NCBI GenBank assembly: GCA_014871385.1
Contig: CM026422.1
Span: forward strand, 19,214,596 to 19,278,595
DNA length: 64,000 bases
Source: Ceratodon purpureus
Lineage: Eukaryota > Streptophyta > Bryopsida > Pseudoditrichales > Ditrichaceae
Reading direction: 5' to 3'
The notes under the pieces are model-generated. The model was not told the DNA's origin and did no database searches. It was given only the letters and a program-made list of their open reading frames with translations. A program made the position numbers and the translations under genes. Of the stretch, positions 2,241 to 47,092 are shown piece after piece; position 1 is the first letter of the stretch; every line of letters begins with the position of its first letter.

Positions 2241-3863
2241 TCTGTTTTCTTCATCGTGTAGCCACAAGTTGCGTGAAACCGTACTAGGCAGCCTTTTGAC
2301 AGACGAGGTAAGACTGACCTTGCTTGAATTCTGTCATCGTCATTGTGATGCACACAATTTGCTAGTTCTGTCTAAGTTTTACAGAACTTTACTGAATCTG
2401 ATTTGTTAGTTTGATTGAATATAGATCTAGTAAACCTTTGAATTAGATGATATTGAAATGGTAATGTATATGTGTTAGGGTATTGGTATAGGAGTGCCGA
2501 AGCGTAAACTTTTGGAAGGGAGGAACATAGCTTATTTCAACTCCGCACCCAAAATTACTGTTTTTGCAGTACTGGACCCTGGTACGCACATTTTCCTTTG
2601 TCTAAACAGATGTTGTTGTTAAATATTCTCTCTTCTAAGTGTTCCTCTAGGTCTCCAAAGGGAGTTCATGATGTGTTCTATATGTTTCATGTTTTAACAT
2701 TGTACTACTTACCAGTATTAGATATGTCTATGTTGTTGTAGATTCAGGAGCGATCGCTTATAGTTTTCTGAGAGTGCATATAATTTTTATCCAGATTTGT
2801 AGGGAGTTTCAATTATCAGGATGTTTTGCATCTAATAATTTCATATGTAGAGCTTCTTATCTGTACAATTGAATCCATAGTTCCCCAAAGCAGAATGCAA
2901 CCGAGTTCAAATTCTATCCAACTGTTGTATCAGTTTTGTCGTTTGCAGTTTATGGTATTTCTATATTTGTGTCTTTGTATCCTCTGTTTTCATTTTCTTT
3001 TGCATTTGACATACGTTGGAACTCACTTTGATATTAACTGGTATAGAGAAGTCTATAAATTTACAGGTTCATATGTTTCATATTGATGTGTAAGATATAA
3101 AGTACATTTAGCTCACAGTTACAAATTAATATAAATAAAAGTTTAGCTCACTGTGAGCTAAACTCTAACTAATTAGATGCAAATAAGCCAGAAAAGCGTT
3201 GAGAAGCAGTAAGTACAAGAGATATTTAGCTCACAGTGAGCTAAAGTCGTTAAAATTTTCAATAATGTATCTAGAGGGTTGCAGTATAATCCCGAGGCCA
3301 AGTATTATTTTGCTCACTGTGAGCTAAACCTCGATGCGATATAGCATAATTTAGCTCATAGTGAGCTAAATGATAGTAGCATTTGAAATTACTTCGTTCA
3401 AAAAATAATAACTTCTTGACAAATTAACACCTCTTTTGCTCACAGTGAGCTAAATTCTGCCAAATCAAATATCAATTTAGCTCACATTCAGCCAATTTGT
3501 CTATAAACTTAGTAACATACTACGTTTACTTCAAGCATTTGGACAAATTAAGATGTGGTTTGAAGAAAGAGGATCATCATGAAATTAGAATAAGGCTCTA
3601 ATTTAGCTCATTGTGAGCTAAATACATTAACTTTCAAGACAACAATAGCCATCTTTAAGCTGTTACATTATTGTAGATAAAATACACTTTAGCTCACTGT
3701 GAGCTAAATTATGTTTCGATTGAAGTCTAATAACCAGGGAACGTGCTGAAAGTGTCCCGTCGGATTCGAATCTAATTTACCTTTGTTTTCTGGATTCAGG
3801 TTCTGATTTTCATCTACAGTCACTCCAAATAATCTTCGAGTATCTTGCGGAAGATCCACAAAG
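2240..3863 (+). CDS. Upstream exons of locus A (unrecognised)
   Basis: Three exon candidates have good splice borders: 2,240-2,307 (acceptor TTGTGCAG, donor GAG/GTAAGA), 2,479-2,581 (acceptor GTGTTAG, donor CCTG/GTACGC) and 3,800-3,863 (acceptor GATTCAG, donor AAAG/GTAAAA). The last two join in phase and read VPKRKLLEGRNIAYF, then a few residues, then DPGSDFHLQSLQIIFEYL. No family is recognised. The third exon spliced straight to the next good acceptor (4,049) would give an immediate TGA, so either an exon is missed here or the main protein starts afresh at 4,050. The intron between exons two and three holds most of the palindrome copies. Confidence 0.4.
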
Positions 3864-4017
3864 GTAAAAGGTTTAGCTCACAGTGAACTAAATCAATTAG
3901 AATGTCAATGAAGAAATCGTGATATCAATAAGATGATTCTATAGTGTACTTAGACGATTGTGATCATAGCTTACTAGAAATTTAGAACCATTCCTATTTA
4001 GCTCACTGTGAGCTAAA
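3107..4017. repeat. Palindrome cluster in introns (locus A)
   Basis: Copies of one 21-bp palindrome: arm TTTAGCTCAC, central A or T, then the reverse-complement arm. Perfect copies are at 3,142-3,162, 3,225-3,245, 3,688-3,708 and 3,997-4,017. Copies with one mismatch lie at 3,308-3,328, 3,350-3,370, 3,434-3,454, 3,602-3,622 and 3,872-3,892. Half copies are at 3,107 and 3,476. Spacing is irregular (42 to about 180 bp) and the DNA between copies is not repeated, so this is neither a tandem satellite nor a CRISPR array. Confidence 0.95.
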
Positions 4018-4049: not shown

Positions 4050-5492
4050 ATGACGAATACACCTAAAGTTCTCATGCCGGACGGGTATGATATGAGTCAC
4101 CTCGAGCCCTTCATCGAGCCATTCATAAATCCGGATCCTGATGAGCCGTTTTTTGAAGCCTCACTTGAACACTCCTACGGATCGCTTTGGAAGTTCAAAG
4201 ACCTTGTCGAAGGTTGGTCTATTGCTGTCTCAAGGTACCAGAAGTTTGTGCGGATACTACACAAGGAGAAGAATTCGCCTCGGTATCTAGATCTATGTGT
4301 CGTCGAGAGAGTAAAGGTAATTGAGGAGCATCACGGGAGTTACATTGTCGTGGTTGTTGGGGCCGTTGATATAGAGTCTGAGTGTGACCTTACACACGTC
4401 CACTCCCTGGTCATCGAAGTCGGGAAGCAGAAGATAACCTTTGATCCAGAGCCATTGATTGAGAGCTTGATAGGAACCTCGGGCGAAACCTTGATGGACG
4501 AAATTCAGAAGGTGTCGTGGAAGACTGCTGATGGTGGCCCACTGAAAGCAGTTGCACTTGGGCGAAGACTGTCACGGGTTTTCCTAACGCTTACCCACTT
4601 CATCACAGACTCAGTTGTAGCGAAGGCACCACCCGTGCCGTTACAGAGTGCACCTGTTGTCTCTACCCGCGACGACTCTGCTACACCATCCCGGGGGAGT
4701 GTTCAACAACGAACTTCCTCAGCAGTTCCCACTCCTGCAAAATCCAGGGCTTCAAAGCGCCCGAGAGTAGAAGCAGATGAAGACGGTCCTTCCAAGAAGA
4801 AAAAGAAGCAAACAACAAAGGCGGGGAGTTCCGGATCAGTGCTTACGCAAACAGAGGAGACGAAGAAGACAAAGAAGAAGGATAAGGAAATCCCAGATTA
4901 CGAGAAGTTTACGGAGATTCAGAAGACCTTCTGGGATGACTGTACCGAGGCCTACGTATTCAATATGAATACAACATTCCCAGTGAATGTAAAGCAGTGC
5001 CACATTGCAAAAGATGAATATATCATCAGAAACTTAGAGAGAGATATAGTAAAGTCCGTGAAGGAAGAGCTCGTACACATGGGTGACATTAATCAAAGGC
5101 AGAAAGTTTGCCTCATGCCAGTGCAAGACAATATGGAGCTACTGCCAGAGAAGCCAACGTCGTGGGATCAGATCAAGGACGGGAAGTTCATGATAATAAA
5201 CGGACAACATAGTATTGTTGCATCGCAGGAGCTCCAAATCGAAGGATGTGGAGAAAAACGAAAGAAAGAACTCGAAACTTGGGATGCATACATTGTGTGG
5301 TCGAAGGATCCTCTTATTCTTGTCAGAATATCAGAATTTTACAATATGTGTAACCATCTCAACCATGCTCAACCTACGTGGGGGACCAATATCTTAAGCG
5401 CCCGTAATGTCTGGATCAGCCAGGGGAGACCAACGAATATAAAGGATGGTACGAGAAACAATGACGCAGTTTACAATGTAAAGAAATTTCAG
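4050..5492 (+). CDS. Locus A exon: N-terminal region and ParB-like domain
   Basis: This exon encodes 481 codons. Residues about 200-290 are Ser/Thr/Lys-rich with KKKKK and KKTKKKDKE clusters (likely nuclear localisation). The last 170 residues resemble a ParB/sulfiredoxin fold: a strand-helix segment EYIIRNLERDIVKSVKEEL, a strand KVCLMPVQ, then FMIINGQHSIVASQEL, which occupies the place of the ParB signature (hydrophobics-G-x-H-R-x-x-A). The Arg of GxHR is Ser here. The element B homologue keeps [11 protein letters not shown] at the same place. The preferred donor is CAG/GTAGTC at 5,493; an alternative AAT/GTATAT lies about 33 bp downstream. Confidence 0.6.
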
Positions 5493-8400
5493 GTAGTCTA
5501 CTCACCCATAGAAGGATACAAAAATGTATATGTCGTGAGTTTAGCTCACAGTGAGCTAAATTCACATCTTCTGTTCTCTCACCGTGAACAAATCCTGACT
5601 GTAGTGCATCAATTTCTGCTACATCAAACTCAATAACACTGGAAATTAAACGTTACTCTCTTAAACATTTTTCTAGTATTCATTATCATTTAGTTTATAT
5701 TTACCTTACTAATACAGTGTTAGTCCCATTGTTTATGACGTATTTGCAATCTTCGCTTTGATCTATGTGTGCTGAAATCCATAAGTAATAACATCTTTCA
5801 ACGACCTGTTTTTCTCCAGAAATTTCTCGAGCTTCTGATCAAACGGTTTCAAAACATCGACCCCAATAAAGACGGTAAGAGTGTACAAGGGCCAGCGGAT
5901 GTGAAGAACGAGATGGTGATTATCACCGCAGCCGAGGATCATTTCATGTTGTGGAGGGAATTTATAACAAAGCATAGCACTGGTGAACTGATTGACCCAG
6001 AGACTTGCGAGCGCTTCAATCAGAAGAAGGGGTTTAAGGGTGGTAAAGCATTCCAGCTTCAGCGTAGCTTCTTTCGCGGGATGGGTTTCATGACAGAAGA
6101 AGAAACGAAGGCATTGGTTCGACATCTGTTGATGCTTACCAAGAATTGGAAGTTTAGGTACCCTAAAGTTTCTGTGCACAAGACACGTGGTACAGTGTTA
6201 CCGCATCACTACTCTTCTGGGGATTGGATGGCGAGGAAGAAGCGTAAAAGGATATGCATCCAAGAGCTTCACGATGTGAAGCCCAGTCTTGGGCTCTGCA
6301 ATCCTGACTATACAATTAACAAGAAGAAGTGGCACGACTGGAAAGCCAAGCACGGTGTTTCGAATGCGACTTTTAATATCCTCCTAGATCGGCCTGACAA
6401 GGGATTCTACGGATTTCGTGCCGAGAAGAAGGGTATGTTCAAGAGGGCCCGGAATTTGACGGAGCGGTGGCCAGAAGTTTTCCCATTCTTTTCCAGATTC
6501 TTGGAGGTGAAAGGAAATTTTGTGCCTCCAACCGGTCGAATCCGAACTCGGCTCTTCAACGCTGTGAAGATGGAGTTCGGAGTACAGTGGACCTATGACA
6601 GCATCCCTCACCTAAGCCTAGCTTTGTTAGATTTTCGTGACACCCCAGGTCATTCAACGAAAGACGACACGGTGGACAATCCTTTCTTTAAGGCATTCCT
6701 GAAGAAGCTAATGGCGGTGAAGGGGCCTTCGATCTCGGACCCGGAAGTGTGGGTTTGGATTTCTGCTACGCAGAAACGAAATGCTCAAGCGATCGCGTAC
6801 GCAGAGAAGCACATGAAAGGGTATTCAGTACTTCCTTCCAGGTACATACCTGCTAAGAATGAACGCCTCAACGACCACACCACCCGAAACTCTGGCAAGG
6901 ACGAACTGTACTTGGTGTTCTTGTTGCGTGCTGGTGGTAAACATGACAAGAAAAAGGTGAAGGCGTCTTATACAGCTCCAAATACGAACTACTATACAGT
7001 ATATGGGCTGTACAAGGAAGCTCATCTACGGCTCAACGCTCGGGAATTGCGAATGGAGTTCTACCTGGAGTTACTGAATACGTTTTGTTTGCCGGGTGAG
7101 AACTTCTGGGGGGTCTTCAGTGGAACCAAGTGCATGTTGGCAGCTCGGGTAAGCTTCTTTCTCCTTGATTTTAGAAATGTTTTTGCTCTGATTGGGATGT
7201 GTTTGGCTTTTCTTATATTGTTCAACGTGAGCTTAATCGAGTATGCTTCGCGTAGGTTATTCAGTTTCTGTCACAACTGACTAAGTATTCTCTAAACAGT
7301 TTAGCTCACAGTGAGCTAAACGTGATAAATAGATTATTGAAATTAATATTACATTGTTCTACTACACGCTGATACATAATATTAGGTACCATTTTATTGT
7401 ATGGTGGTGATGTGCGTTTCTATCTAATAAATATATTATCTCGACAGTGAGCTAATTCATAAAAGCACTAAGAGTTGTTGGCATCTCAGTAAATCATTCG
7501 ATGAACTGAGATCTTGCTTAACCATTTAGCTCATAATGAGCTAAATGTTTTATCCTAATCTTTAATGTTATTTTTAATTGCTTAGACTACTAGACTAGAA
7601 CGATTTCCTTCTGTTCAAATATTTGCGGATTTACAATATGAGGCAGCGTCAGTTGTTTTTTGGCGGTTTAGTTTCTTAGCACTTCGAGTGGATTGTAAAA
7701 CAGATGTGTAGCTCCTCAGTATGATACCTCTTTATTTAGCTCATTGTGAGCTAAGTCGGCCGGATTTGAAGTTTACTAACAGTGTTAAGACATATGTATG
7801 TGTTTCAGATATATGGTATGTTCTACTATGGAATCATTGACCACAACTTTGATGAGTGTTACAAGGATATGTCAAAGCTTGTACCATCCCTGGATATCAA
7901 TGATTTCGTCCACGAGAACTCTGTCTATGATTCAAAAGAGACACATCCGGCACTAGAGAGGCAACAGTTCCTTGAGAGCGACGAGTTTGATCGTCCAGTT
8001 GGTTTAGACTTGTCCACCGACGACGAAGACGAGGAGTCACCTGATGACATCGATGACAATGCTGATGCTGCTGAGGACCTTCGTGAAGACATAGGAGCTG
8101 GCTTTGATGAAGAAGATGCACCGCCCCCTAGCCCACGGACAGAGCCTCGGCAACTGCTATTAGCTCACAGTGAGCTAAACATGGGTGCACCGCGGGCTCG
8201 AGGCTCTTGCCCTCTACCTGAATCTCGCTTTAGAAGTCAGAGTTCTAGATTGGGTCGACGGTTAGTGAGGAAGTTCAATATTGAGCAAGACCTCCAAGCT
8301 GATCTCGTAGGATCATCATCTAGGAGGAGGACCGAAGCGGAGGAGGAAGACTCCAGGGATAATGAAGAACAGATGGAAGAAACAGTTGTCGTGCAACTCA

Positions 8401-10601
8401 AAGACGGGGTTTTTATGGGGGTTCCCTTAGTGCCACTAAGCGACTCCGAAGACGATGATGAAGATGTGCCCTCTCCCAGTGCCAATTGCCAGGGCGAATC
8501 GTCGAGACCGGTTATTCCTACTGTCGCTGTGCGTCTCGAATCGGTTCCAGAGGATGAGGATGAGGTATTTAACGCCGCGGGTAAGGCTCCACATCCTGAA
8601 GAACCAATCGTCAAGAAAGAGATCGATTGGTTTGATTGGAACATGAAGCGGAAAAAGCAGAAAAAGGAAAAGAGTGAGAGAGAAGCGGAGGCCACTCGGA
8701 TTCTGGTGGAGGAGGCTCGGTTGGCTAAGGAGAGGGCAGAGACTCAACTCATGGAACAGCAGGAGAGAGACAAGCAACGCGACAAGGAGATTGCTGACAT
8801 GAAAGCCATGCTCGCTCTTATGGTTGCTCACAACTCTGGTTCCATCTCTGCTCCAGCCTTGGAGCCTAGTCCGAGTATCGACCAGCCGTTTTTAGCTCAC
8901 AGTGAGCAAACTAACCTGGATGTACCGGGGAGTGTAAACTCCGACAGCGCTAGGGCTGTAAATCCTCCCCCTTTAGAATTACTTGTGATTTCCCCTGATT
9001 TGGCTGAAACAGCCTCGGAGGAAGATTTGCAACCGCCGGTTCCTAAGACCACCTGCAAGCCAGACACCCCGGTGCCTCAGACGCCGGATGAGGATGATGA
9101 CATGGATAGGAATGTTGGTGGTGACCGAACCTCGATGGAGGTTGTTAAAAACAGTTCTAATGTGTCTGAGCAGGGGCAGGGTATCTCAGTGAACACGGAG
9201 AGCTTGAAGGAAGGGCCTTCAGATTGTCACTTGGATACAAATGCACCTACAGATGGCGAAGACGAGGAGTTGTTAGATTATGAGAACTCCCCGGAGATAT
9301 CACTGTCGCTCCCAGATGCTTTGCCCATTGTCTTGGAGGGCCAGAAGGGTGCAGACGGTCATGAGGTATGCGGTTCTGGGATTTACGTGAATCTTAACCT
9401 CTAAGTGTTAGGGCTGCATTGTTATTTGCTTAAACAGTTTACCTTATCTGAATGATAAGTGATTGTACAAACAATTTGAAGTGTGACACCATTTATAAAG
9501 CTTAAAACTCCTCATCCGGGTTTCCATTTCAGCCTAATACAAATATTGTATTCACAGTAGATATTGATTCACATTAGATATGTTATGACTTTTACAAGAT
9601 CTTGACTTGTTTAAATTGTTGTTCTGAATGGATGGTCAGCTAGAAGCAACTGACTATGTTCATCGCCCGGTTGCTGTTAAATCTCTGGTTAGCGAGGTGG
9701 AATTGCGTTCAAATTGTTCAAATCAGAAATTCAAATTGTCCTCGCCTTTTCGTGCTTCTGCATTTCATCAGGTAACGGTTTTTGTCTTGTTTCATTGCTT
9801 TTCCAGGCTGAAGCGTCTACAAAGGTCTCACGAGGTCTTAAGGGTGTAGCTCCCAAGAAGTGGCTGAACGTTGTATTGGACATTAATGGAATTCTAAGTA
9901 AATGCATCGACAGGCGGAGTGGATTGAAGGACTTAGTGACGAACCACGTTAACCTAGGAGTTCTAAGCCCAACATTCCCCACTCTTATAGGTCCTAAAGC
10001 TGTGTATGTTCGGCCGGGATTTACAGATTTTATATCATTCGTGAACAGTTTCGCTCATATCGTCGTGTGGAGTTCAATGAAGTTCACGACGGCCATGGAT
10101 GTTGTGAATTACCTGTTCAATGGCTTGCCAATGCCTTCGCTTATACTTAGTCAAGAAGATTGCGACCGTATTGAAACATCTCGTCGTACTATCTTGAAGT
10201 ACCCGGACGGAGACAAGCCGATTTTTCTCAAAACTTTGTCAAGGGCCCTTTTCGAGAAGAGTTCCACCTACAGCAGTGCAAACACAATCCTGATTGATGA
10301 TAGTCCAGAGAAGAGTATATGTAACAACACTGGAAATGCGGTTTTCTTAAAATCATGGGTTGAGAAAGATGCGGATGATTGCGTTCTTATGTCAGTATTG
10401 GCCCCATGGTTGTCAACGTTGGACAGGAATGCGGGAAATGGGAAACTAGTAGAGTACGTTGATGCAAATAGAATCGGAGTCCCTCCTCTGTCCCAAGACG
10501 ATCCACTATTTCATCACATTTTAGAAGGGATGGCGCTTTCAACACGGAATATGGGTGTCAGATTTAATGTTTGCGGCGTTGGCAAACATAAGGCTTTTTA
10601 A
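4050..10601 (+). CDS. ParB-like / DNA methyltransferase-like / FCP1-like fusion protein (locus A)
   Basis: Four large exons (4,050-5,492; 5,820-7,148; 7,809-9,365; 9,807-10,601) all join in phase 0 with GT-AG borders and give about 1,707 residues. Order: N-terminal region with a Lys-rich nuclear-localisation-like stretch, ParB/sulfiredoxin-like domain, methyltransferase-like domain, long acidic linker, FCP1/SCP HAD phosphatase-like domain. ParB plus N4/N6 methyltransferase fusions are known in phages and bacteria; a eukaryotic intron-bearing version with a CTD-phosphatase-like tail is unusual. A homologue lacking the phosphatase lies in the transposon at 46-61 kb and a decayed piece at 16.8-17.4 kb. 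I infer a nuclear DNA-binding or DNA-modifying protein, either transposon cargo or a host copy. The start is taken at the ATG right after the acceptor at 4,049; upstream exons may add residues. Confidence 0.7.
5540..5560. repeat. Palindrome copy in intron
   Basis: A perfect copy of the TTTAGCTCAC-W-arm palindrome inside the intron 5,493-5,819 of the ParB-methyltransferase gene. Confidence 0.95.
5820..7148 (+). CDS. Locus A exon: methyltransferase-like domain
   Basis: 443 codons between acceptor TTTCTCCAG and donor CGG/GTAAGC. The order fits a permuted (beta-class) N4-cytosine/N6-adenine methyltransferase: a motif-IV-like strand FNILLDRPDKGFYG near 6,370-6,410, and near the exon end MEFYLELLNTFCLPGENFWG then VFSGTKCMLAAR, which matches the PGD-V-D-x-F-x-G-x-G...AA pattern of motif I. 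Motif I continues across the intron into the next exon (YYGIIDHNFDECYKDM matches the GR-x-x-x-GxExD part). Motif IV reads DRPD instead of the usual (D/N/S)PP(Y/F/W), so catalysis is doubtful. Confidence 0.6.
7300..7755. repeat. Palindrome cluster in intron between methyltransferase exons
   Basis: Copies at 7,300-7,320 (perfect), 7,525-7,545 (two central mismatches) and 7,735-7,755 (two mismatches), plus a decayed copy near 7,440-7,455, all within the intron 7,149-7,808 that splits methyltransferase motif I. Confidence 0.9.
7809..9365 (+). CDS. Locus A exon: end of methyltransferase motif I and acidic coiled linker
   Basis: 519 codons from acceptor TGTTTCAG to donor GAG/GTATGC. The first 20 residues complete motif I. 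The rest is low-complexity: Asp/Glu blocks (DDEDEESPDD, DEEDAPP), Pro/Ser stretches, and a Lys/Glu-rich likely coiled coil near residues 275-350. Two palindrome copies lie inside the exon and are translated in frame as LAHSEL and LAHSEQ. Length is probably unconstrained here. The reading frame would otherwise run on to a stop at 9,404, giving an alternative short C-terminus if the intron is retained. Confidence 0.6.
8159..8179. repeat. Palindrome copy inside coding exon (LAHSEL)
   Basis: The palindrome with one outer mismatch lies inside the acidic-linker exon. It is 21 bp, an exact seven codons, and sits in the one frame of the three that has no stop, giving LAHSEL. Confidence 0.9.
8891..8911. 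repeat. Palindrome copy inside coding exon (LAHSEQ)
   Basis: A second exonic copy in the same frame as the one at 8,159. Two mismatches in the right arm give LAHSEQ. Confidence 0.85.
9807..10601 (+). CDS. Locus A exon: FCP1/SCP-type HAD phosphatase-like domain
   Basis: 264 codons plus stop, spliced in phase 0 after GAG at 9,365. Hallmarks of the NIF/FCP1 family are visible: WLNVVLDINGIL (HAD motif I, normally DxDx(T/V)), YVRPGFTDFISFVNSF, HIVVWSSMKFTTAMDVV (motif II region), and NTILIDDSPEKS followed by NAVFLKSW (motif IV). This family dephosphorylates Ser in the RNA polymerase II CTD. The second Asp of motif I is Asn here, so true phosphatase activity is uncertain. It could be a separate gene, but the in-phase splice to the methyltransferase exon supports a fusion. 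Confidence 0.75.
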   Translation, partial: AEASTKVSRGLKGVAPKKWLNVVLDINGILSKCIDRRSGLKDLVTNHVNLGVLSPTFPTLIGPKAVYVRPGFTDFISFVNSFAHIVVWSSMKFTTAMDVVNYLFNGLPMPSLILSQEDCDRIETSRRTILKYPDGDKPIFLKTLSRALFEKSSTYSSANTILIDDSPEKSICNNTGNAVFLKSWVEKDADDCVLMSVLAPWLSTLDRNAGNGKLVEYVDANRIGVPPLSQDDPLFHHILEGMALSTRNMGVRFNVCGVGKHKAF

Positions 10602-13870: not shown

Positions 13871-14738
13871 AGTGTGTTAGCTTACTATAGATTCAAAAAT
13901 AATTAAAGAACAAGTGGGTAGGTAGAGTGAGGGTCAGATAAGTATCAAATTACTTGTAGGTCACTGAAAATCAGAAGTTGATTTTTAGGTGCTGAAGTGG
14001 TGCCGCATAGAACCATCAAATGACATGAATCCATGTTGATTGATTTTTAAGAAGTGAGGTAAAGAAGAGCTTAAAAAATATCCATTTGCTGCGGGCAGAG
14101 ATAATGATTTTTAGGTGTTGAGGAGAACCATCAAATTTAACTTCAGAAGATACATGGACAAATGCACATAAACTTGCCAAATATGCATCTTACATTTCTC
14201 ATTGTTGCCACTAGACAAAACTAAATATAAAGTAAAGTTAAAAAGACTTTTTGGAAGTTCTAGATTTTCCATTATATTGTAGAAATATGTCTTCATATAG
14301 GTCAATGTAAATTGATTCTAATTTAATAAGAGATAGAGAAGCAATCAAAGATGCATTTTACTTCAACTGATTTTGTCATGAGATAGAATCGAATATAGGT
14401 TAGAGTAAAATAGACTTAAACTAAAAGTTTTAGATGTTACCACAGTGGAGTAAAAAAATCCTTCTTTGTAATAGGTCAATGTGAAAATCACTAGATTAGT
14501 CTAAATCACTAGAAAAGAATGGATAGATAAAGACAAAGATGAGGGTTTTAAATGAAAAAAATATAGCTTTGCTTTATATACTTGGACAATTGGTTTAAAC
14601 ATGACCTTTTACGCATTCTTTTGTAAAGCATCTAAAGAATATTTACATACAATAGTAAAGTATTGTCGTTCTTTTACATGGTATTGAATCCATGCTTTTA
14701 GTCTCTTTATAGTCATTAATTGTATCATACTCAGCGAC
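13871..14738. other. AT-rich spacer, no gene
   Basis: Stops in all frames and no recognisable element between the tandem duplication and the left end of element C. Confidence 0.6.
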
Positions 14739-14782
14739 GCTATCTTGTGAGCGGTGAGCAGTGAGCGATGAGCGGTGAGCAC
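14739..14782. repeat. Left inverted terminus of element C
   Basis: GCTATCTTGT then tandem 7-mers GAGCGGT, GAGCAGT, GAGCGAT, GAGCGGT. This is the reverse complement of the terminus at 17,648-17,697 with few differences. Confidence 0.85.
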
Positions 14783-16127
14783 AAAATTTCAGTTTTTTTC
14801 AAAAAGAAGTTTGAATTTTTTTTACAAAAATGAAATATTTTCACCCAATTCTATCAAAAACCATAATCTTAAAACTCTTTCTTCGAAGACATGATTAAAT
14901 AATAAATGACACCTATTACCGTGGAAGGTTAATAAATTTGACTATTTTTAAAAAAAATCCCAAAAAAGGAAAAACAAAAAAAATTGCTAAATTTATTTCA
15001 AAAGAAGAAATGGGATAAAAACCAAAACTAGGTGGGAAAAAAACTCTTACGCAAGGCCTTTTTGGATTCACAAAGAGAGTATTCTTTTATATCCACTTTT
15101 GAAAATAAAATTCCACAAAGATATAACATTGAAAGGTGGATTCGACAGTCGATTACATGTGGTTTTAAAATTACAATTTTTGTTTTTAATATACCTTTTT
15201 ATGATTTACTACAGAATATTATATAATTGAAAATTTGAAGGGGCTTAGTAGATATGATCTTTATTTATAGAAGGTAAGTTCAAATACATACTAAGCATAA
15301 ATTAAAATTAAATCCATTAGGAGAAAATATGAGTCACAAAGTAAAAACTTCTATATCAATTGCAATTAGTTCCAAAGAAACATCCAAAGGAATCTATCAA
15401 GTGTAGTAAGTTCTAAAAACGCATAACTTTGTTGAAACCAAGTCGATGAAAGTATCCACTTTGTAATCCATCTTTTAGAGATATAAAGGAATTTAGTAAA
15501 CGTGTTTGTCGTACTTTTCTTATCCTATCTTTCCAAGGATCTATAATATCATCTTCATGAAATTTAAGAATGTACATTGCGGTTAATTGATGATAGTAAT
15601 GGAGTACAGCTTCCCCTTTCCACCATCTATAGAAATAACATATCTATAACTACAACATGGTATGAATTTAAAATTTATCATACAACAATTGTTTAAACCC
15701 CACAAGAAAGATTTCTAAAAACATGTAACAAGTATTATTTCCCAAAACAATTGATCTGGTAATTTTCCATAAAAACTATCAAATAATACTCAAAATTAAA
15801 CCACTTGATGGAACTCTTGAATCTCAAAGACCCATAAAAGGATGTGTCTTTCCAATGAAAAATACATTCAAAGCATACAAAGTGACGTAGGAATCCAAAA
15901 GAGGTTTAACAATCACATGTTTATTGAATTTTGAGTTAAGTAAAAATAGGCATCCGACTTGAAAGGGATTAAAACATATAAAAGTTCTTGAAAGTTAGAA
16001 AAGATAAATGTGGCCTTCACACCTCAAAGGGATCCATAATGTATTAGCTTTTAAAAATTATTCAACAAAAAAGGTATTTTAACTATGCTGATATTCTGAC
16101 AATGTTGTTTTGAATTCTTCAAATTGG

Positions 16128-16490
16128 CACTACACATGGAGATTTTCTCCAAATCTTTGATGTAATACACCGTTGGAAAGCCGTCGACAAGAGCTTTCCA
16201 AAAACATACAACAAGCCATATTTCCAAGAAGAAAAAAAATTCTCGTCATTTTCCATGCGAATTGTTAAAAAAAGTGTCAAAATCCCACCCACCTTAGGGT
16301 GCTCTCGGATCCGAGAGATGGATTGAGGCTGCCTCTTGCATTCACTTTTTTTGACAACTCGCATGGAAAATGATGAGATTTTTTTTTTCTTGGAAATATG
16401 GCTTGTTGTATGTTTTTGGAAAGCTCTTGTCGAGGGCTTTCCAACGGTGTATTACATCAAAGATTTGGAGAAAATCTCCATGTGTAGAGG
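16128..16490. repeat. Long hairpin inside element C
   Basis: Arms of about 145 bp (16,128-16,275 and 16,345-16,490) are near-perfect reverse complements, for example GGAGATTTTCTCCAAATC on the left and its complement on the right. The loop contains the palindrome CTCTCGGATCCGAGAG. Another copy of that palindrome is at about 16,730-16,746. It could be a nested foldback MITE or give double-stranded RNA. Confidence 0.8.
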
Positions 16491-16795
16491 TGCCCCCAAG
16501 CTCTGACTTTGACTCGCTTTTTTGCTCCATGTGAGCTCCAGCTCAATGTTGGATGCTCAGATTTCTCTGCTTTTTCAGTTTCAAGTGAAGGCAGAAAGCA
16601 TCCCCGAACCAATATCCCTCGGATGCGAGAGGTGCCTTGGCCAAGTATTTTTTTTTGCTTTTTTGAGTGCGTGGTTACAATTTTTACTCACAGTTTGAAG
16701 TTCAAAAACAGAATATATGTAAGATTCTCCTCTCGGATCCGAGAGGAGAATATATGACAAAATATATGACAGAATAATCTATCATAAAGCGTAAA

Positions 16796-17410
16796 ATGAC
16801 CTCTGAAAAATTGCAGCTTTTCGCAATTGCGAAGGTTTTTGCCAAGTACAAAGAGAGATGGCTAAAGTGGTGGAACATGAGCAAAGAGAGACGCGTGGAG
16901 TATAACCGTCCTTCATCACCAACTTCTGATTCAGTTCTCCGGGTTTGGATTGATCAAGTTGCCTTTTCGGCTGGGGTATGTATTCAAATCTTTTGGCTGA
17001 AATTGTTGAATTCATTCCAGGTCTTCTACCGGTTAGAGAAACAATATATTTGTTTAAAGTAAAATATGTACTTATGAAAATTGTCATTGTTTGTTACCGC
17101 AGTTAGAGGAGGAGGCTCTCAATTGTTATGCTAAGATTGTAGAGGAGGACATCATAGTGTTGAAGGCACATGATTTACCAAATCCTGCATAGTGCATTGG
17201 CTCTTGGATTGAGGCTCATTCCATCACTTTGTGGGGGAAAGCCTTTAGAAATTTTTTCCTAAGGCTAGCACTTTTACCAAGAAGGAGCCATTTCTCAACC
17301 AGGCTGGTGTTGAGAATGCTATGAAGCAGGCTATCTTGAGGTATTTCTGGAGGGAGTTGGTTGTCAAGGGTGCATTTGACAAGAACAATATTCCACATCG
17401 GTTTAAGAAG
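16796..17410 (+). pseudogene. Decayed ParB-methyltransferase gene fragment in element C
   Basis: Exon-like 16,796-16,977 ends KYKERWLKWWNMSKERR ... VWIDQVAFSAG before a donor GTATGT. It matches the element B exon at 56,751-56,966 (KYKAR, then LRWWNSS ... [11 protein letters not shown]). After acceptor TTACCGCAG (17,101) comes LEEEALNCYAKIVEEDI, matching [12 protein letters not shown] of element B. An in-frame TAG at about 17,190 and a frame change near 17,265 follow. The later frame (KQAILRYFWRELVVKGAF) aligns with [13 protein letters not shown] of element B. Only this middle part of the gene survives. Confidence 0.7.
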
Positions 17411-17647
17411 TGAGTAGATGTCTCTAACAGTAATGTATTTTTAGAGATTATCAGAGAAAGCATTTTGGAGCTCTTCACCTCCATTGGATATGAATTGGGT
17501 GTAAATTTCTACATTAATCAATTTAGAAGCCATTATCTTTTGAAAAAAACCTTTAACCACCTTCCACGGCCATAGGTCCCATATATACCATGTCATGCAA
17601 AATCATCTCAAAATATTCAAATAATAGTCAAAAATTTAAAAATTTAG

Positions 17648-17697
17648 TGCTCACCGCTCACCGCTCGGCGCTCACTGCTCCCCGCTCACAAGATAGC
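17648..17697. repeat. Right inverted terminus of element C
   Basis: Heptamers of the ACCGCTC type followed by ACAAGATAGC, mirror image of the left terminus. Confidence 0.85.
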
Positions 17698-19750
17698 ATT
17701 CCTGCAATTTCGAGTAACAAGTTTGAAAAGGAACACTTGATTTCAATAATAATGATTCAAAACCACAAATGTGCAAGGTGAACCAATGTTGCACAATGAA
17801 GAAAGAGACCTTTTGTAAGTACTGCTAGAGATATCTAATAATTGTTGGTTGGAAGAAAATAAAGTTTGAAGATCAATGCAATTGCAGCAATATGTTTTTA
17901 ACAAAATCAGATTAATTATGAATTTTGAGAGGGTATTGGAATGAATTACACCATATTTGTAACTTGTTATATTGAAAAAAATCCATGATTTTGAGACAAT
18001 GCACATTCAATTCGACTTCACCTAAATCTTCATTGAAGATACATTTTAGAACCCTAAAGCAACACATGTATTAAATTAGGAAATTCATAATCTTCCAATA
18101 TAACAAATATGGTTTTGAATACCACTAGACCAATTTTATTATCCACTTGATCAACACTCAACCATGACTACTTATTGAGTGCCAAATTGATTTAATTGCA
18201 TTCAAATACCACCATGTACCAAATCTATTACCACCACATGGTTTTTGTCAAAATTTGAAAGCATTCACTCAATTTCTCTTTATCACCATTGTCTCATCCC
18301 AGTTAAACCAAAACTAACCAAAACTTGAGCACAAAACCACCACTCTTGCATCCATTGTCATGAATGGCTTGAAGTTAGCACTTGTTGCATTTGGGTGATA
18401 AGTTCATGCACCTCAAAACAAATATTTGTGTATAAAAAAGAAACAAGGTTTGTTTATGAAAAAATCAAGGTTTTAAATTTTTGTATTTGATTTTATTTTG
18501 TAAATAGAAACATTCATTGTAAATGTGTTGACAAGATAAGAGGAATTATACTATTAAAATTTTGGGTGCTGTAAAACATAAAAGTGCTTTGAAAGAAGTC
18601 ATCAAAGTTTGGATTTCAAGACGATTTAGTGGCTACAAGGGTGTCTTAAATGTGCCTTACAAAAATCTAAGATAACATTTGTTTATTTTTAGACATTGTA
18701 GAGATAAGAAATTAATTTATTATAAAATAAATACTTATATTAAAATAAATACTTATATTAAATTAAATTCATATTAAATTAATATAATTTTAAGACTTAT
18801 ATTAAATTAAACTTGAAAAGAATTTCAAGAATACAATCAATCTTGTAGTCATCTAAATAGATGTAATATGTAGAACTCCTCTAAGTTTATCATTGATTTT
18901 AATTTTTGTTATACATTCTACTTTACAAATTCATATATTTATCCGTAATTTATAACTATAATGTCTTCAAATGCTGATTTTAGAAAAAGATACTTGATTT
19001 TAGTATAGAAACTTATGATTCATGTTAGAACATAACAAGACATAATTTGAACATCGTAGAAATTAATTATGCACTTTGAGAACGGTCATTTCATTACCAA
19101 CAACTTCTTTCTAATCCACATTGGTGGCCGAAACCAACTTGCAGTTAATTGACGCAAATCCGCTCAAGTTACCATCAATGCACTCCCCAAAATTTTTTAC
19201 ACATAAAAAGAGACATTTTTTGGGATTTAGCCGTCAAGCCTACGGCCCGGTTTAAAGATTTGCTCCGTTTTTTATACCTAAATATTTCATTTTACTGCAT
19301 TGATGTTACATGTGTCAATGATCTTTTGTTGATTATATTTGAACGCTCTTCATACAATATGCATTAATATCAAGCCCAAGTACTGTGCAATTACTTCTTT
19401 GAATGGATGCCGGTGTGACATATAATTACACATCCTTTGACGGTTCGAATTAATTAAACATGATGTTCATTGAAAACTACTTTTTAGAATGCATCGTTTC
19501 GGGTGCATAGGTAGAAATGTAAGCATGTTGCAAACAAATGCAAAATATAGGGTCCATAAATGACAGTCAAAAAAATTATCAGAAATGAAATAACTCTCAA
19601 TATCTCTCATTTATCCTTGTTTGGTAGAATAAATTTGAAATATGCTCTATTACAAATCTTTATTCCATACAAATGAATACAAGAATAAACTACAACAATT
19701 TTAATCCAACAACAAATACTACGTAGGGCTTTCAAGAAAACACATATAAA
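17698..19750. other. AT-rich intergenic DNA, no gene seen
   Basis: Frequent stops in six frames, AT runs around 18,720-18,810, and no repeat family recognised. Confidence 0.65.
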
Positions 19751-22700: not shown

Positions 22701-22984
22701 GTGGTCATATGGTGAGGAACCACACAACTTGAAAAGATTCGACATCCTTACAATGTTAAATCCACACTGCGTTACTGCAATGTGAACTCCTTTGAGTTAC
22801 AAGGATGTCCAGTGCCTGCCCTGAAAGAAAAGCCAGAAACATGCAACGCTGACTTGTTTATGTTTTCAACCTCATCGAAGATTGCCAATCTCCAATATTC
22901 ATGTATCATGAACACCAAAGTACTCAGTCGAATCCACAACCATCTCAAGCTATCCTCCAGCAACCGATGAGTGTATTGAACTCC
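19751..22984. other. Intergenic DNA downstream of the NBS-LRR gene; two GGCGCC palindromes
   Basis: No convincing exon series on either strand. Two copies of the core GGCGCCGGCGCCAT occur at 19,765 and 20,185. They are the only striking short motifs and are too few to call an element. Confidence 0.5.
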
Positions 22985-24190
22985 TTAATGATGAATGCAC
23001 AAGTTGACCAAATTCTTAATGGATGGTGGTAGAGATGCCAATGATGTACACCCACGAAGATCAAGGCTTGATAAGTTGACCAAGTTGCCAATGGATGGTG
23101 GTAAAAATGTCAATGACGTACACCTATAAAGATCAAGTTCTGATAAGTTGCCCAAGTTGCCAATGGTTGGTGGTAAAGATGTGAATGACGTACACTCACG
23201 AAGATCAAGGTTTGATAATTTGCCCAAGTTTCCAATGGATGGTGGTAAAGATGTCAATGACGTACAGTCATAAAGAATAAGACTTGATAAGTTGACCAAG
23301 TTGCCAATGGATGATGGTAGAGATGTGAATAACCTACACCCACGAAGATCAAGCCTTAATAAGTTGACCAAGTTGCCTATGGATGGTGGTAAAAAAGTCA
23401 ATGATGAACACCAATCAAGATCAAGGTTTGATAAGTTGCCCAAGTTGCCAATGGATGGTGGTAAAGATGTCAATGACCCACAGTCACGAAGATCAAGGCT
23501 TGATAAGTTATCCAAGTTGCCAATGGATGGTGGTAAAGATGTCAATGACTTACACCTGTAGAGAATAAGGCTTGATAAGTTGACCAAGTTGCCAATGGAT
23601 GGTGGTAAAGACGTCAATGATGTACACCCACGAAGATCAAGGTTTAATAAGTTGACCAAGTTGCCAATGGATGGTGGTAAAGATTCCAATGACATACACC
23701 CATCAAGATCAAGTTCTGATAAGTTGACCAAGTTGCCAATGGATGGTGGTAAAGATGTCAATGACCAACACTCACGAAGATCAAGGCTTGATAAGTTGAC
23801 CAAGTTGCCAATGGATGGTGGCAAAGACGTCAATGACGTACACTTATAAAGAATAAGGCTCGATAAGTTGACCAAGTTGCCAATGGATGGTGGTAAAGTT
23901 GTCAATGACGTACACCCATGAAAATCAAGGCTTGATAAATTGCCCAAGTTGCCAATGGATGGTGGTAAAGATGTCAACGACCAACACTCACGAAGATCAA
24001 GGCTTGATAAGTTGACCAAGTTGCCAATGGATGGTGGTAAAGACGTCAAAGACGTACACTTATAAAGAATAAGGCTCGATAAGTTGACCAAGTTGCCAAT
24101 GCATGGTGGTAAGGATGTCAATGACCCATACTCATGAAGATCAAGGCTTGATAAGTTGACCAAGATGCCAATGGATATGATTATGGCTAT
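22985..24190 (-). repeat. 72-bp tandem repeat encoding LRRs
   Basis: About 16 copies of a 72-bp unit (GTTGCCAATGGATGGTGGTAA on the plus strand recurs throughout). Copies are close to identical at DNA level, indicating recent expansion or gene conversion within the LRR array. Confidence 0.9.
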
Positions 24191-25741
24191 TTGTTGTAAA
24201 TGATTGAAGTTTTCTTCAGAACCAACATCGTCCACAACCACCAGTACCTTGTGCTCCTTCACAAAAGCCTTCAGGTCCTTGAGGTACACTTCTTTTGAAT
24301 CCTGAAAGTCGCTTAGCTGTGCCTCACCACCCGTCTTTCCATTCTTGATTCCAAACTGTCTTAACAATGTTACCAACACTTCATCGAACGTGCCTTTCGA
24401 TTTCACATCGTCCAGATAACTGCTTCTGTCGAAGTCATTACAGATAGATTTGTAGATAATTTTTACCAATCTGGTTTTTCCACTTCCGCCCATACCATTA
24501 AAACCCACAATCCGAAATTCTTCTAGCATGCCTTTGACACTCTCCTCTTGTTCCTGAAACCTGACAAGGCTTTCCAACGCAAGGCTCTCTATTGCGAACG
24601 GAAGAGAAAGCATATTTCTGTCCAGAACCTCCTTCAATCGCGTAGTCAAACATTGGTAGCTGGAATCCGTCTCAGACCTTGGCTTGCAAATATCCATATA
24701 GTTCGCATTCAAGGTCATGTGAGTTGCATTTGCGTACCTTGAAGATGCCTCTGCCACTACCATTTCACGAAACTGTCCAAGGTGACAAAGTTCTGCCTAA
24801 TTAGTACATGCTGTGGAAGAATGGAAGTTCTCAAGTAAAACACAACTTAATCATGAATATCTGTATACGGATAAGAAGTTCCAAGCACAGATGGTAACAG
24901 ATACTCACCTCGGGTATTTCATGTGACTCTGCTACAACATGAAAATGCCATGATGGGCGTTTGAACTGCTCAAACTCCTGATTGAGCCGACCTGTCTCTT
25001 TGTCAAGGACCTCAAAATTCTCCAACAAGGGGCCCTTGGCACTACCGCTAAGATACAATGGGGATTTAGCCAAATGCGATCCATGGTGGGGTGTGGAATA
25101 GAAACAGAATGCATCGATGTTTTGCAATAGATTCTTGACCTTCTGGTTCTGTGAAAACTGAGGCTTGTTTCCACTTATAACGATTTGCTTCGCCACCAAG
25201 CCACCAAACCCATGGCACACAAACACCACTGGAACACCGATCTGCCCAATACGCCCAAAATTGACCATTTCTTGTATGAGGTTCTCCCCAAGAAGAAACA
25301 AATCCATCCTTCCATCAGTGGCAGTCCGCTTAATACTAGCATCATACGAGAGTGCCAGCACTCTTGCAGAGGGGAACTCCTTCGGAAGCCAAGTCCTTGG
25401 CCAGAGATTTTCTGGTATACCATCTCGAGCCCAAGTCTTCCAGTATGTATCTTCACATTTGCCTTGCTGTAATCCATGAATGAAGACCACCTCCAGGTGC
25501 ACTGTTTTAGGTTTGTAGAATTCAAATACCGAGTCACTCAGCTGCATCCCAAAGAACAAACAAACACTAGGTCAGACCTCAAAGTGACAATGACTCCTTT
25601 GAATGCCTATAATGCAGCAGAATAAGATACCTTGATCGAATACATTTGAAAGCATTCAGATCGTAGTTCGTCAACAGCGGTATCAAATTCGAGGCTAACC
25701 TTTTTCCTAAAAGCAAGTGGATCGATTATTTCACCCATTGT
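22985..25741 (-). CDS. Alpha/beta-hydrolase-NBS-LRR (HNL-type) resistance-like protein
   Basis: Three exons in phase 0: 25,741-25,631 (start MGEIIDPLAFRKKVSLEF), 25,544-24,909, and 24,796 to the stop near 22,985; about 852 residues. Exon 2 is a SERAC1/PGAP1-like alpha/beta hydrolase: VVFIHGLQQGKCEDTYWKTW, VVFVCHGFGGLVAKQ and FYSTPHHGSHLA. The nucleophile position (usually HSxGG) reads HGFGG, so the Ser appears lost. Exon 3 has an NB-ARC start with P-loop GFNGMGGSGKTRLVK and kinase-2 KVLVVVDDVGSEENF, but runs straight into LRRs: RNBS-B, GLPL and MHD motifs are absent. About 16 near-identical 24-residue LRRs follow (LTSLPPSIGNLVNLSSLDL type). Hydrolase-NBS-LRR proteins are known from liverworts as intracellular immune receptors. 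The missing ARC half suggests a non-canonical or decayed receptor. Confidence 0.85.
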
Positions 25742-31025: not shown

Positions 31026-34000
31026 CTATTCGGTGGGGATGGATTGATTGTTTTCTAGCCGTCGTTTGTGGAGAAGGATAGAGGCGGCATGGTGTATAGC
31101 GATGGTATTGATGTCTTTGAATGTGCGTGAAATGGTGAGTTCAAATATGTTGAATGTGTTGTGGAGAGAGGCCATGGATGAGGCATGTGTGGTACCGCGG
31201 GCTCCCGCGGTGATGACAAGGAGGGGCTCAACTGTCCATCCTCGGGAGATGATGTCATTGATGAGGGGCTGGTATTTGTTAATTTTGTTAGTGATGGATT
31301 GTTGTGAGAAGTGGTCATTGGTGTATGTGAATTTGATGAATTGTATTGTTAAAGAAGGCGAAGGTTGAGATGGGGGGGCATGGTGGTACGGAAGACCTTT
31401 AATATAGAGTAAGTCGGGTTTGAGTCGGGCATTGCAGGAGCAACGAATCAACGACGGTTGAGGCAAGTGCAGGGGAGAAGCCAAGGGGGGACTGTATTGT
31501 CTGGTTTAGAGTTGTTGAATGTGCCGGCATTCATGAGAGTGTAAGAGCGGGAGGCCTTATTGGACAGAAGGAGGTTGCGGAGTGCCCAAACTGCTTTGTT
31601 GTGGCGTTTAATTCGGAGGGCATGTATATGGTAATGAGTGCATTTGAGGAGCACATGGAGCCAGGTGTCGGCGTCATGGGAATGACAGAGGGGGCAGGTG
31701 ATGGAGGGGAATCGGTTGATACCAAAGAATAGCTGTTTACGGGCATTGCCCATGTATTGACCAGTGCGGAATTTGAGGATGGTGGTTTTTTGGGAGTCGG
31801 TGATGGCGGGGTTGGTCCAAAAGTCATTAGAGAGGATATTGTCGAGGGAAGGGTTCATGGTCCATTTATAAATATTGGGGAAGCGGTGTGCTAAAGTCGC
31901 GAGGGTTGTGTTTTGGTCTTGTTTGGTAAGATAGGTGGAAAGACAGCGAACAGGGCCTTTATCGGGTCTATGGCCCGGGCCTGGCCAGGAGTCTTTCTGA
32001 AAATAGAATGGGGTAGTGTGGGCAAAGTGGTGAGGTATGGAGGCAAATTGATAGAGCTTTTTGGTGCCACGTTTGGCAAGTTTATCTGCGTGTTCGTTTC
32101 CAGAGATGTTAATATGTGCTTTAACTTTGTGGAGTGATGTTGGTTGGGTGCGAAGGAGGAGCATATCAACCATGGAGATGAGGATGGTTTGGTCATGATG
32201 GTTTCAATGGAGAGTAGGATGTTGGATTTGGGTGTTTATGAGGTATAGACAGTTGAGGCAATCTGTGAATATATGTGCTGGTTCCTAGGGGGTGGTTGTA
32301 ATGAGGATTTTGAGAGTTTGGTGGATGGCCATAAGTTCTGCTCGAAAACTAGTTTGTAATCCCGGAAGGCGTTTGGATATACGGATGGCAGTGTTGGTGG
32401 CATGATATATACCGTAGCCGGCTTTTTCGCGGATCCAGAAGCCATCAGGGTGTTTTCTAGAAGGAGTAAATGAGCCATCGGTGTAATAGTTGTATTGGGG
32501 TGGATAGCGGAGTTGTGGGGTGGCAAAGAAGTTGGGAAAGGGGGGTGGGGGAGAGAGTGGGGGGGAGTAAGCTGGAGGATAGAGGAGTTTGTTCCAGTTG
32601 CGGTTTTTGTTAACAAGGGTTCGGGGTGGGGTGCGTGGGGCGGGGTCGGTGAAGGTGTGGGGGATGCCGAGGTTATCGATGATGTGTTGGAGAGGGTCAG
32701 TTGAAGTAGGGAGGTTGGAGGGGTGATGTTTATGGTGTACACAGAGTATACGAATGGCGAGGGGTTTTGGGGAAGGTTTATGTGAGGTTGGCAGTGTGGG
32801 TTCGTCATAATTAAGAGTATTTGCAGCAAAGTAAGTAATGACATGGGTGTCGGGGAAGGGGCCGAGATGGGGAGTAATGTTGTGGAACCAGTTAGGGTCA
32901 GGGAGGGTGAGGATGGTGACGGAGAGGGGGTCATCCTGTGCAGCTAGTCTGGCCCAGTGGAGTGCTTGGTGGGCAAGTTCTTCTGTAGGGGGGTGAGCAT
33001 ATCCAATGCCATGCCATTTATGTTGAAAAGCGGTGCCTTGGGCACCAAAGATGCGATCTCGGGGATATGGAGAATAAAAGTGAGTAAGGGAGGGGGAGCA
33101 TGTGAGTGGGGATGAGAAGTATGAGTGGGTAATGTTATAAGTGGTACTAAAGGAGTGTAGTAGGGTGGCAGGGAGGGTGTGGTGGTAGGGTGTATGGGGT
33201 TTGTTGGATGAAGAGAGAGGTTTATAGCGTAGGAGGAGCCAGGCAATTTCGGTTTCAAAGGGTTGTAGGGGTGGGACTAGGTTGGGAGTGTGGGGGAGTG
33301 AGTGGTGGTATTGTTGCCAAAGCCATTGTAGTCGTAAGACAGGAAGAGTAGAGAGATGTGTGCCATCGTCGTTATAAATGTGTGCTAAGTCATTGAGGAT
33401 GTGGATTGTGGGGGTGGTGGTGGTAATGTCTTTGTCGGGGTTGCGTTCACGTATGGAGATGTGGACTTGAGGGAGGAAAGTAGCCGGGGGAATAAAACGA
33501 AGGTCCCGGGCGTGGGGTGGGGGGAAGTGTGCTTGGAGGATGGTTTTGTAATGTTTATGTTGTTGGCTCGTATAGTAGGTAGTGAGGAGATAGAGGTTGT
33601 GAGAGATGGTGTTGGGGAGGTTATAGGGGAAGAGTGTCTGTTGGGGCATCCATTTGGTGTAAGAGGGGGTGTTTGGGGAGAGCCATTGGCACAGGAAAGA
33701 GGTGTAGGTTGTAGCTATGTGGAAGCGGTCAAGGACTTTAATGGTTTTGTGGGTGAGGATAATGGAAATAGGAAACTGGAGGGCATTTTTGGGGATGTAA
33801 CGAGGTGGAGGAAGGAGAGGAGGATGTGGGGGAGGTGGAGGAGGGTTGGGGGGATGGCGGAGGCGAGGTGTGAGTGTGCGGTTATCTGTGATGAAGCGAG
33901 CGAGGAGTGTAGGGGGCGGGGGGTGGGTGGGACATTGAGGCGGGCAGGCGGGGGAGCAACTAGGGTAGCAGAAGAGTTGTACTGCAATGTTTAATGCACT

Positions 34001-34054
34001 CTTTTCGAGTTTAGATGGGGTGTGGTAGTAAAGTTTGAAGTCATCGGGGGACAT
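31026..34054 (-). pseudogene. LINE C-terminal part: RNase H, zinc finger, 3' ORF end
   Basis: The first piece (34,054-32,285) ends in an RNase H start: YYTDGSFTPSRKHPDGFW and FRAELMAIHQTLKIL. After frame changes near 32,285-32,170 a second piece (32,173-31,448) carries the RNase H end HKVKAHINISGNEHADKLAK and a zinc-finger segment CPLCHSHDADTWLHVLLKC. A further frame change near 31,450 leads to the last piece (31,484-31,026), ending LLHKRRLENNQSIPTE. At least three frame changes in this part. Confidence 0.85.
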
Positions 34055-34356
34055 GAGGGTGGTGCCATTGGGAAGAGTGAGGTGTTTGACTTCGGAGATG
34101 TTGTGTTGTAAGAGTTTATGTTGGAGTTTGAGAGAGAGGGTAGGGTGAAGGGTGGGGAGTTCAAGTCGGGCCTGGATCTGCCATTGGGTTTCGAGTTGGG
34201 TGGCATGGAGTTGGAAGTTTTCGAGGGTGCTTTTGAGGTGGATGTGGCCAGTGGTTTTGAGGAGGTATAGAGTACAGGTGATGGGAGATCTGAGGCAGTC
34301 TTGGGTTTTGATGCGGGGGATGTCTTTAGCGCCACCATATATGGAGAGAATGCCTC

Positions 34357-46120: not shown

Positions 46121-46195
46121 ACGTGAGCGCAGAGCGCAGAGCGGAGAGCGGTGAGCGCAGATTTGGAGAGCGGAGAGCACAGAATGGGGGACAGA
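46117..46195. repeat. Left inverted terminus of element B
   Basis: TTGTACGT then GAGCGCA, GAGCGCA, GAGCGGA, GAGCGGT, GAGCGCA, an off-register unit, GAGCGGA, GAGCACA. Mirror of 61,056-61,115. Confidence 0.9.

Positions 46196-46827: not shown

Positions 46828-46864
<37 letters not shown>
46828..46864. repeat. Poly-T tract
   Basis: About 37 consecutive T residues in the AT-rich left subterminal part of element B. Non-coding from 46,200 to 47,090. Confidence 0.95.
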
Positions 46865-47092
46865 CATTCTTTAATTTAAAAAAAAAAATTTAAATGCTAA
46901 ATGACCTCTGCTAAACCTTCATCTTTTTCCATTCGGTTTAAGAGGATGACAACTTCTCAATGAATGAATAGCCGATTTTCAAGGGCGCCAAGCATCTTCT
47001 TCGCGGATATTTAAGATAAGAGTAGGGAATGTCTCTGCCTCTTTTGTGTTGGTGTTATGTGAAGCTCTTTTCCGTAGTGCGGGACAGCAGCT

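Follow-up and report, generated by a model that had tools for sequence, protein, structure and literature searches.

A 64,000-bp stretch of the moss Ceratodon purpureus (assembly GCA_014871385.1, contig CM026422.1, positions 19,214,596 to 19,278,595), referred to here as the window, carries two genes, one at locus A and one in element B, whose products combine a ParB-like region with a methylase-like region in which the catalytic motif is replaced. Both genes belong to multi-copy families, dyad-symmetric sequences are arrayed directly before both of them, and at A these sequences change in step with the protein lineage. We tentatively propose that the two products are element-specific, DNA-binding regulators of self-recognition, comparable to the VANC proteins of Arabidopsis VANDAL transposons. 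The genome searched for copies comprised 362.5 Mb in 151 contigs, and the coordinates of the window features are collected in Table 1.

The genes of the A family that are of the window type (group I) carry 21-bp palindromes of the form TTTAGCTCAC-W-GTGAGCTAAA. In the window they precede the start codon and also lie within introns 1 and 2, at two places in exon 3 and behind the gene, with 18 near matches (≤4 mismatches) between 3 and 12 kb; exact copies number 439 in the genome (220 forward, 219 reverse) against none for a reversed-pattern control. The divergent group II genes, 40–43% identical, have palindromes of the form TTATCCTCGA-N-TCGAGGATAA with the same 10-1-10 geometry and in the same kinds of place (151 in the genome; reversed-pattern control, 0), and the three group III copies (34–36% identical) have TTATCCCCGA-N-TCGGGGATAA. 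Palindromes were present in all 14 A-type gene regions scanned (five group I, six group II, three group III). With up to two mismatches allowed, the five group I loci held only group I palindromes and the six group II loci only group II palindromes. They lay ahead of the start codon, within introns 1 and 2, or both; the target-like motifs of A thus change with the protein lineage. For the comparison of palindrome and gene positions, 55 of 90 A-type matches were typed, the 35 omitted being mostly fragments and decayed copies; each of the 100 group I sites listed (of the 439, both strands) had a group I gene within 25 kb, and 17 of the 50 distinct group II sites listed (of the 151) had a group II gene within this distance.

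In the B family, a tandem array of long period lies within 1.5 kb upstream of the ParB-like exon in 27 of 30 copies; its period is 126–130 in 23 copies, 86–87 in L018 and L026, and 139 in L042 and L043. The array units vary between copies and keep TCGGCCCCGA with compensated arms and a T run, most also having a second stem. Covariation was analysed in 15 chosen units, consisting of 13 distinct units of 25 derived by script and two (L044, L031) cut by hand from the repeat-finder consensus. In these, 92.7% of cells pair compared with 83.7% after shuffling, 25 cells are changed on both sides compared with 11.1, and the covariation measure is 0.261 compared with 0.120 (each reached in 0 of 500 shuffles), the dyads being kept by compensation. 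When the partner was slid by one base, pairing was 45–50%, a comparison that is favoured by the structure having been derived from the same sequences. Rfam gave no match for the 128-bp array. Each unit of the window array also has about ten T after the two stems, resembling an RNA polymerase III terminator, and the units could be transcribed.

The methylase-like part is best defined in B, where the joined exons score 30.9 bits against the Pfam profile PF01555 (cut-off 26.7 bits; E = 3.5e-7); in the wider B methylase family, 4 of 17 members match this profile at E up to 1. In profile comparisons with PDB, the B methylase part found DpnA (E = 0.0045 and 0.0049) and more weakly CcrM (0.053), RsrI (0.1) and MboIIA (0.14), while the wider 17-row family found CcrM at E = 0.00098, the alignment running from motif IV (6.4 bits on its own) to motif I (12.9 bits). 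The order of motifs is that of the beta-class N6-adenine methylases CcrM and DpnA, but B has D-[IV]-P-E in place of their DPPY. The catalytic motif of N6_N4 methylases is [DNS]-P-P-[YFW], and in HMMER alignments DIPE takes the place of DPPY. Motif IV is LIIADIPEN, outside this consensus, and motif I is DWNAGTG in each of the 13 B copies read; the 17-row alignment shows D and P without variation and E kept in at least 90%, and of 11 public relatives read (65 were found) ten have D-[IV]-P-E and the remaining one DVPK. In A, the place of motif IV (LALLDFRDTP near 6630) reads D-[LF]-[RG] in nine of nine rows, DPPY being absent, and the place of motif I (GENFWGVFSGTK near 7098-7135) is degenerate too. 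Because the aromatic residue of DPPY is lost and the change is conserved in B, ordinary methylation is argued against, and the suggestion in the initial annotation that these genes mark their own DNA appears doubtful, even if an altered motif is no proof of inactivity.

From its sequence, the B methylase-like part is supported as a beta-class, bacterial-type domain in an intron-bearing gene on plant transposons. The bacterial side of the capture from bacteria or phages that had been proposed is consistent with this, but a phage origin is not borne out by the public relatives, which comprise a Ceratodon purpureus protein (P0008, with PF01555, 38% identical to the query) and others. The whole B protein had no match among 8,000 public candidates scored, but profiles of both parts did match. 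A genome search with PF01555 (32 matches listed; best 150 of 773 candidates scored) also revealed a locus at G000:C8:9595672-9596436 that matches nearly the full profile (positions 2-218; 35.5 bits) with one internal TGA, alone in this among the matches listed, and could be another methylase lineage.

The ParB/sulfiredoxin superfamily has the active-site motif G-x-H-R. In B, G-N-H is invariant in 45 rows and R is present in at least 90%, whereas A has GQHS without the arginine in nine of nine rows. The ParB-like part of B was identified by motif and order, and PHROG 1033 (ParB-like) gave at best E = 0.056, in 5 of 45 B-family members that were not among the 20 members run singly. In A, both parts were identified by motifs and their order, the methylase-like part at motif level; no profile recognised either of them, PF01555 included. 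Of the fusion of two domains initially claimed for both loci, there stand an open four-exon gene at A and, in B, a methylase part that passes PF01555, but the ParB-like part has profile support in neither gene and the methylase-like part has none in A. Single-sequence structure prediction gave models too poor to speak for or against either fold (predicted local distance difference test score, pLDDT, of 36.6 for one exon piece of the A methylase-like part).

The A gene (4050-10601) consists of four exons with GT-AG introns in phase 0 and runs for 1,707 codons from ATG to stop without interruption, while the B ParB-methylase-like gene (55509-59469) has ten exons of consistent phase with two in-frame stops (56234, 56850); splicing is read from the sequence in both genes, in agreement with the in-phase introns first reported, and the splice borders of the B methylase exons are conserved in 12 further copies. 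The A-type family has at least 90 genome matches, fragments included, that are 34–100% identical (85 of 808 candidates scored), and the B-type family at least 150, each at least 79% identical (of 1,902 candidates). Selection on A and on the B ParB-like exon is strong. The ratio of non-synonymous to synonymous substitution rates (dN/dS) between A and the C4 copy is 0.080 in exon 1 and 0.046 in exon 2, and in comparisons with more distant copies synonymous sites have reached saturation with amino acids far less changed. For the B ParB-like exon the median is 0.154 (range 0.085–0.313; 305 pairs with dS>0.1; 2 of 30 copies, L032 and L040, were mis-trimmed and yielded nothing). Some A-type copies hold stops, for example the C5 copy at exon 2 codon 135.

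Both families also have features that resemble parts of RNA polymerase II (Pol II) biology, specifically that of its carboxy-terminal domain (CTD). The B exon before the ParB-like exon encodes three to four heptads of the form Y-x-P-[TAS]-S-P-x, most commonly YMPTSPV, in every one of 30 copies and none on the reverse strand; these score 15.1 bits against PF05001 (Rpb1 repeat), below the cut-off of 20.3. Exon 4 of A matches PF03031 (E = 2.4e-13; 50.5 bits against a Pfam cut-off of 21.8) and is placed in the same protein as exons 1–3 because of phase and open frame only. NIF/FCP1 phosphatases usually have the catalytic motif DxDx(T/V), in the form DxDG(T/V) where A has DINGI; the A sequence is VLDINGIL, with the second Asp changed to Asn. 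We infer that the B heptads and the A CTD-phosphatase-like domain serve as two different means of engaging the Pol II tail, and a possible CTD link in both families was unexpected.

In the mechanism we propose, A and B would be accessory genes of two DNA transposon families, and their products, a ParB-like part joined to a methylase-derived part with a replaced catalytic motif, would recognise the dyad-symmetric sites arrayed directly before their own gene and, in A, also in its introns. In the manner of VANC in Arabidopsis VANDAL elements, the bound protein would maintain expression of the element or its accessibility to transposition, and the CTD-like heptads of B or the CTD-phosphatase-like domain of A may couple it to transcription. 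A more ambitious version, which we consider unlikely as it stands, is that land-plant transposons have a parS/ParB-like system of their own, in which element-specific palindrome arrays are loaded with a ParB-like protein whose methylase domain has been retired. This protein would hold RNA polymerase II through the heptads or the CTD-phosphatase-like domain and keep the element active, protein and sites co-diverging and thereby separating lineages.

Parallels to this mechanism exist in known systems. VANC targets are often tandem repeats that vary between related VANDAL elements (excerpts of PMC5735166); on that description the likeness lies in an element-encoded factor with tandem-repeat targets varying among related elements, but no sequence relation is established, and in the moss the candidate sites take the form of long palindromes or dyads, with a protein that is ParB/methylase-like. 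The closest published architecture is Ectocarpus Sola1-1, whose 1,104-amino-acid protein has ParB-like and N4/N6 methylase domains and was suggested by its authors to bind and modify its own element (excerpts of PMC12477816, which point to Iyer 2011 and Petroll 2025 for relatives in green and red algae). On that description, two prokaryote-like domains likewise appear to occur in one transposon-borne eukaryotic protein (in B, the ParB part by motif only), and the gene lies opposite in strand to the transposase, apparently so in B too. As far as that description goes, the moss differs in having at least 150 B-type matches, an altered catalytic motif, palindrome or dyad arrays, and CTD-like heptads or a CTD-phosphatase-like domain. 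The Bacillus cereus protein Bce_0392 is a bacterial ParB-methylase fusion (excerpts of PMC5512222) with the domain pair proposed for the moss proteins, but B has about 500 amino acids between the parts, introns and extra domains, and Pfam misses its ParB part. The ParB-methylase fusion itself is already published for algal transposons, and what is new is the palindromes of A and the arrays of B; in a partial literature search, no paper was recognised that describes either palindrome arrays or CTD-like heptads alongside genes of this kind.

A number of results weigh against the proposed self-recognition mechanism. The ParB-like part of B and of its 45-row family has no profile match (PF02195, PDB), PF02195 has no match in the genome, and single-sequence prediction for one exon piece of the B ParB part gave a model too poor to provide fold evidence (pLDDT 42.2). 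Comparisons of A with B gave no significant sign of homology: with hhalign, the ParB-like parts reached E = 0.14, their top block being misplaced, and the methylase parts 0.095, their top block lying where it would be expected, and direct single-sequence comparison was not significant. Taken by itself, the segment with motif IV reaches only 0.3 bits against DpnA and 6.4 against CcrM. In young B copies, dN/dS is 0.58 for the methylase core at a median dS of 0.07 (50 pairs; 11 of 13 rows, of equal length) and 1.5 for the tail (12 pairs), so that recent constraint on the core is not strong and the tail is not constrained. As to the sites, group III copies have mixed palindrome forms, though related to the others, and 33 of the 50 listed group II palindromes have no typed A gene within 25 kb. 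Three of the 30 B copies (L027, L032, L033) lack an array of long period within the 1.5 kb read, the 15 units of the covariation test were hand-chosen, and its weaker measures gave pairs changed on both sides of 7 compared with 5.2 (18 of 500 shuffles) and further pair types of 13 compared with 10.8 (43 of 500). Helix 2 of the B unit accepts U-G pairs (7 of 14 at one position), which would sooner fit RNA than a DNA site bound by protein and makes a role as RNA possible, and the palindromes of A could be bound by another protein of the element, since all genes of an element diverge together.

These last two points form a rival explanation that we regard as somewhat unlikely, namely that the transposase or some other protein of the element binds the palindromes and arrays, or that the arrays of B encode a structured RNA, with the ParB-methylase-like protein acting otherwise. 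En/Spm TnpA is a precedent for such a binder. Two dispersed group II sites also speak for it: by eye, L083 (~780) and L084 (~700) are short repeats with inverted ends (CCATATTCGTTAT..) and one group II palindrome in the middle, an arrangement that would fit a cis requirement, and other group II palindromes that lack an A gene nearby may be similar (two were looked at). However, the arrays lie directly before the ParB-methylase-like gene in both families, and the A sites lie in its introns as well.

An active N6-adenine or N4-cytosine methylase marking its own transposon DNA, the view of the initial annotation, is an unlikely alternative to the self-recognition mechanism. The S-adenosylmethionine-site motif DWNAGTG, kept in all 13 B copies, and the PF01555 score of B speak for it, and self-marking was likewise proposed for Ectocarpus (excerpts of PMC12477816), but DPPY has become D-[IV]-P-E in B relatives and is lost in A along with a normal motif I. 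It is less probable still that the ParB-like part is a nickase or nuclease aiding transposition; Bce_0392 is reported to nick nonspecifically and ParB-like domains with NTPase or DNase activity are described (excerpts of PMC5512222), and B keeps G-N-H-R, but A is without that arginine and no profile links the domain to ParB. A captured gene without present function that hitchhikes with the elements is highly improbable, as the stops in some copies (two in window B) and the weak constraint on the B methylase core are outweighed by dN/dS of 0.046–0.154 in A and the B ParB-like exon and by copies only 40–43% identical to window A (L062-L065) that are open in both exons.

With regard to the elements themselves, B is a 15,017-bp transposon with inverted ends and a 10-bp target duplication, so the placement of the copies in inverted-terminus transposons, as initially described, stands for B; A is also a multi-copy element, but the third copy, in element C, holds linker sequence only. 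Mutator-like element (MULE) transposons have a 9–11 bp target duplication and long inverted ends, as found in B; classification as a MULE was nonetheless rejected, the MULE transposase profile having no Pfam match in the exons read. The transposase-like gene of B has no Pfam match of note and ends in CxC..CxH, which we take to be a SWIM-like motif. For A, an open 944-codon DUF7869 protein (E = 3.1e-44) lies about 9–12 kb before the gene, outside the window, and is present beside the C5 copy as well, there split by one stop; being multi-copy and flanked by this protein, A is therefore probably part of a transposon, most likely one of at least 18 kb seen here without its ends. Contig C6, which at 110.5 Mb makes up about 30% of the genome, carries 35 of the 55 typed A-type genes. 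The sex chromosomes of C. purpureus exceed 100 Mb each, about 30% of a 360-Mb genome (excerpts of PMC8000587), and A-type elements seem to gather on C6, probably a sex chromosome.

Table 1. Positions of the features of loci A, B and C in the window
Feature	Position	Strand	Remarks
Group I palindrome array	3142-4017		Directly before A gene; 10 near matches
A gene, exon 1	4050-5492	+	N-terminal part and ParB-like region, INGQHS near 5196-5213; open
Group I palindrome, intron 1 of A	5540-5560		
A gene, exon 2	5820-7148	+	Methylase-like region
Three group I palindromes, intron 2 of A	7300-7755		At 7300, 7525 and 7735
A gene, exon 3	7809-9365	+	Acidic, charged region
Two group I palindromes in A exon 3	8159, 8891		Within coding sequence
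A gene, exon 4	9807-10601	+	NIF/FCP1-type CTD-phosphatase-like domain from residue 1460; stop 10599-10601
Element C	14732-17704		Short; heptamer-type inverted ends
Target duplication of B, left	46098-46107		10 bp, AAGTTGATGG
Element B	46108-61124		15,017 bp; inverted ends of NNGAGCG-type heptamers
Transposase-like gene of B	47801-51490	-	At least two exons, open reading frames 49352-51490 and 47801-49228; assigned by eye
Tandem array	53425-54620		Units of ~128 bp, before B ParB-methylase-like gene
CTD-like heptad exon of B	54949-55231	+	YMPTSPV..; 3' end and joining to ParB-like exon inferred
B exon with ParB-like region	55509-56092	+	
B linker exons	56185-56380, 56466-56663, 56751-56966, 57063-57304, 57394-58066	+	Stops at 56234 and 56850
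B methylase exons	58153-58506, 58590-58851, 58937-59107	+	LIIADIPEN in first; DWNAGTG starts in second
B last exon	59213-59469	+	Acidic, serine-rich tail and stop codon
Target duplication of B, right	61125-61134		10 bp

Element C had been taken to contain a decayed fragment of the same architecture, which did not hold, the stretch 16700-17404 matching only B residues 303-500 (the linker) and neither domain. Five sister copies of C (L070-L074) have only linker matches of note in 3.2 kb each, and the stretch downstream of one of these (L075) matches nothing; C is therefore regarded as a short derivative, not a third two-domain copy. No direct duplication of at least 6 bp was found within about 50 bp of both ends of C. 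The linker query has at least 150 genome matches (of 1,674 candidates), and a more distant copy with the same linker (L076) does have the methylase part, with FDVPED at motif IV, one stop within it and one before. The sequence GTGAGC, which the group I palindromes share with the C heptamer ends, was considered as a half-site shared also with the B ends, with densities of 4.12 per kb in A, 3.02 in C, 0.27 in B and 0.64 in window 18-46 kb; because it is rare in B, it is a weak lead only. Inside C there is also a nearly perfect 109-bp inverted repeat (16130-16487; 98%).

Elsewhere in the window, a long minus-strand open reading frame at 22929-24796 begins, by eye, in NB-ARC-like fashion and contains numerous leucine-rich repeat units of 72 bp (SLTSLPPSIGNLVNLSSLDL), and minus-strand reading frames at 31448-36498, also by eye, resemble a retrotransposon without long terminal repeats (reverse transcriptase, RNase H) with strong strand skew. 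A tandem array at 43787-45106 is made of 324-bp units of two related halves of ~161–163 bp.

A large moss family with a conserved catalytic change and cognate-looking arrays makes a testable question of whether plant transposons have, beside VANC, a second route to self-recognition and escape from silencing.

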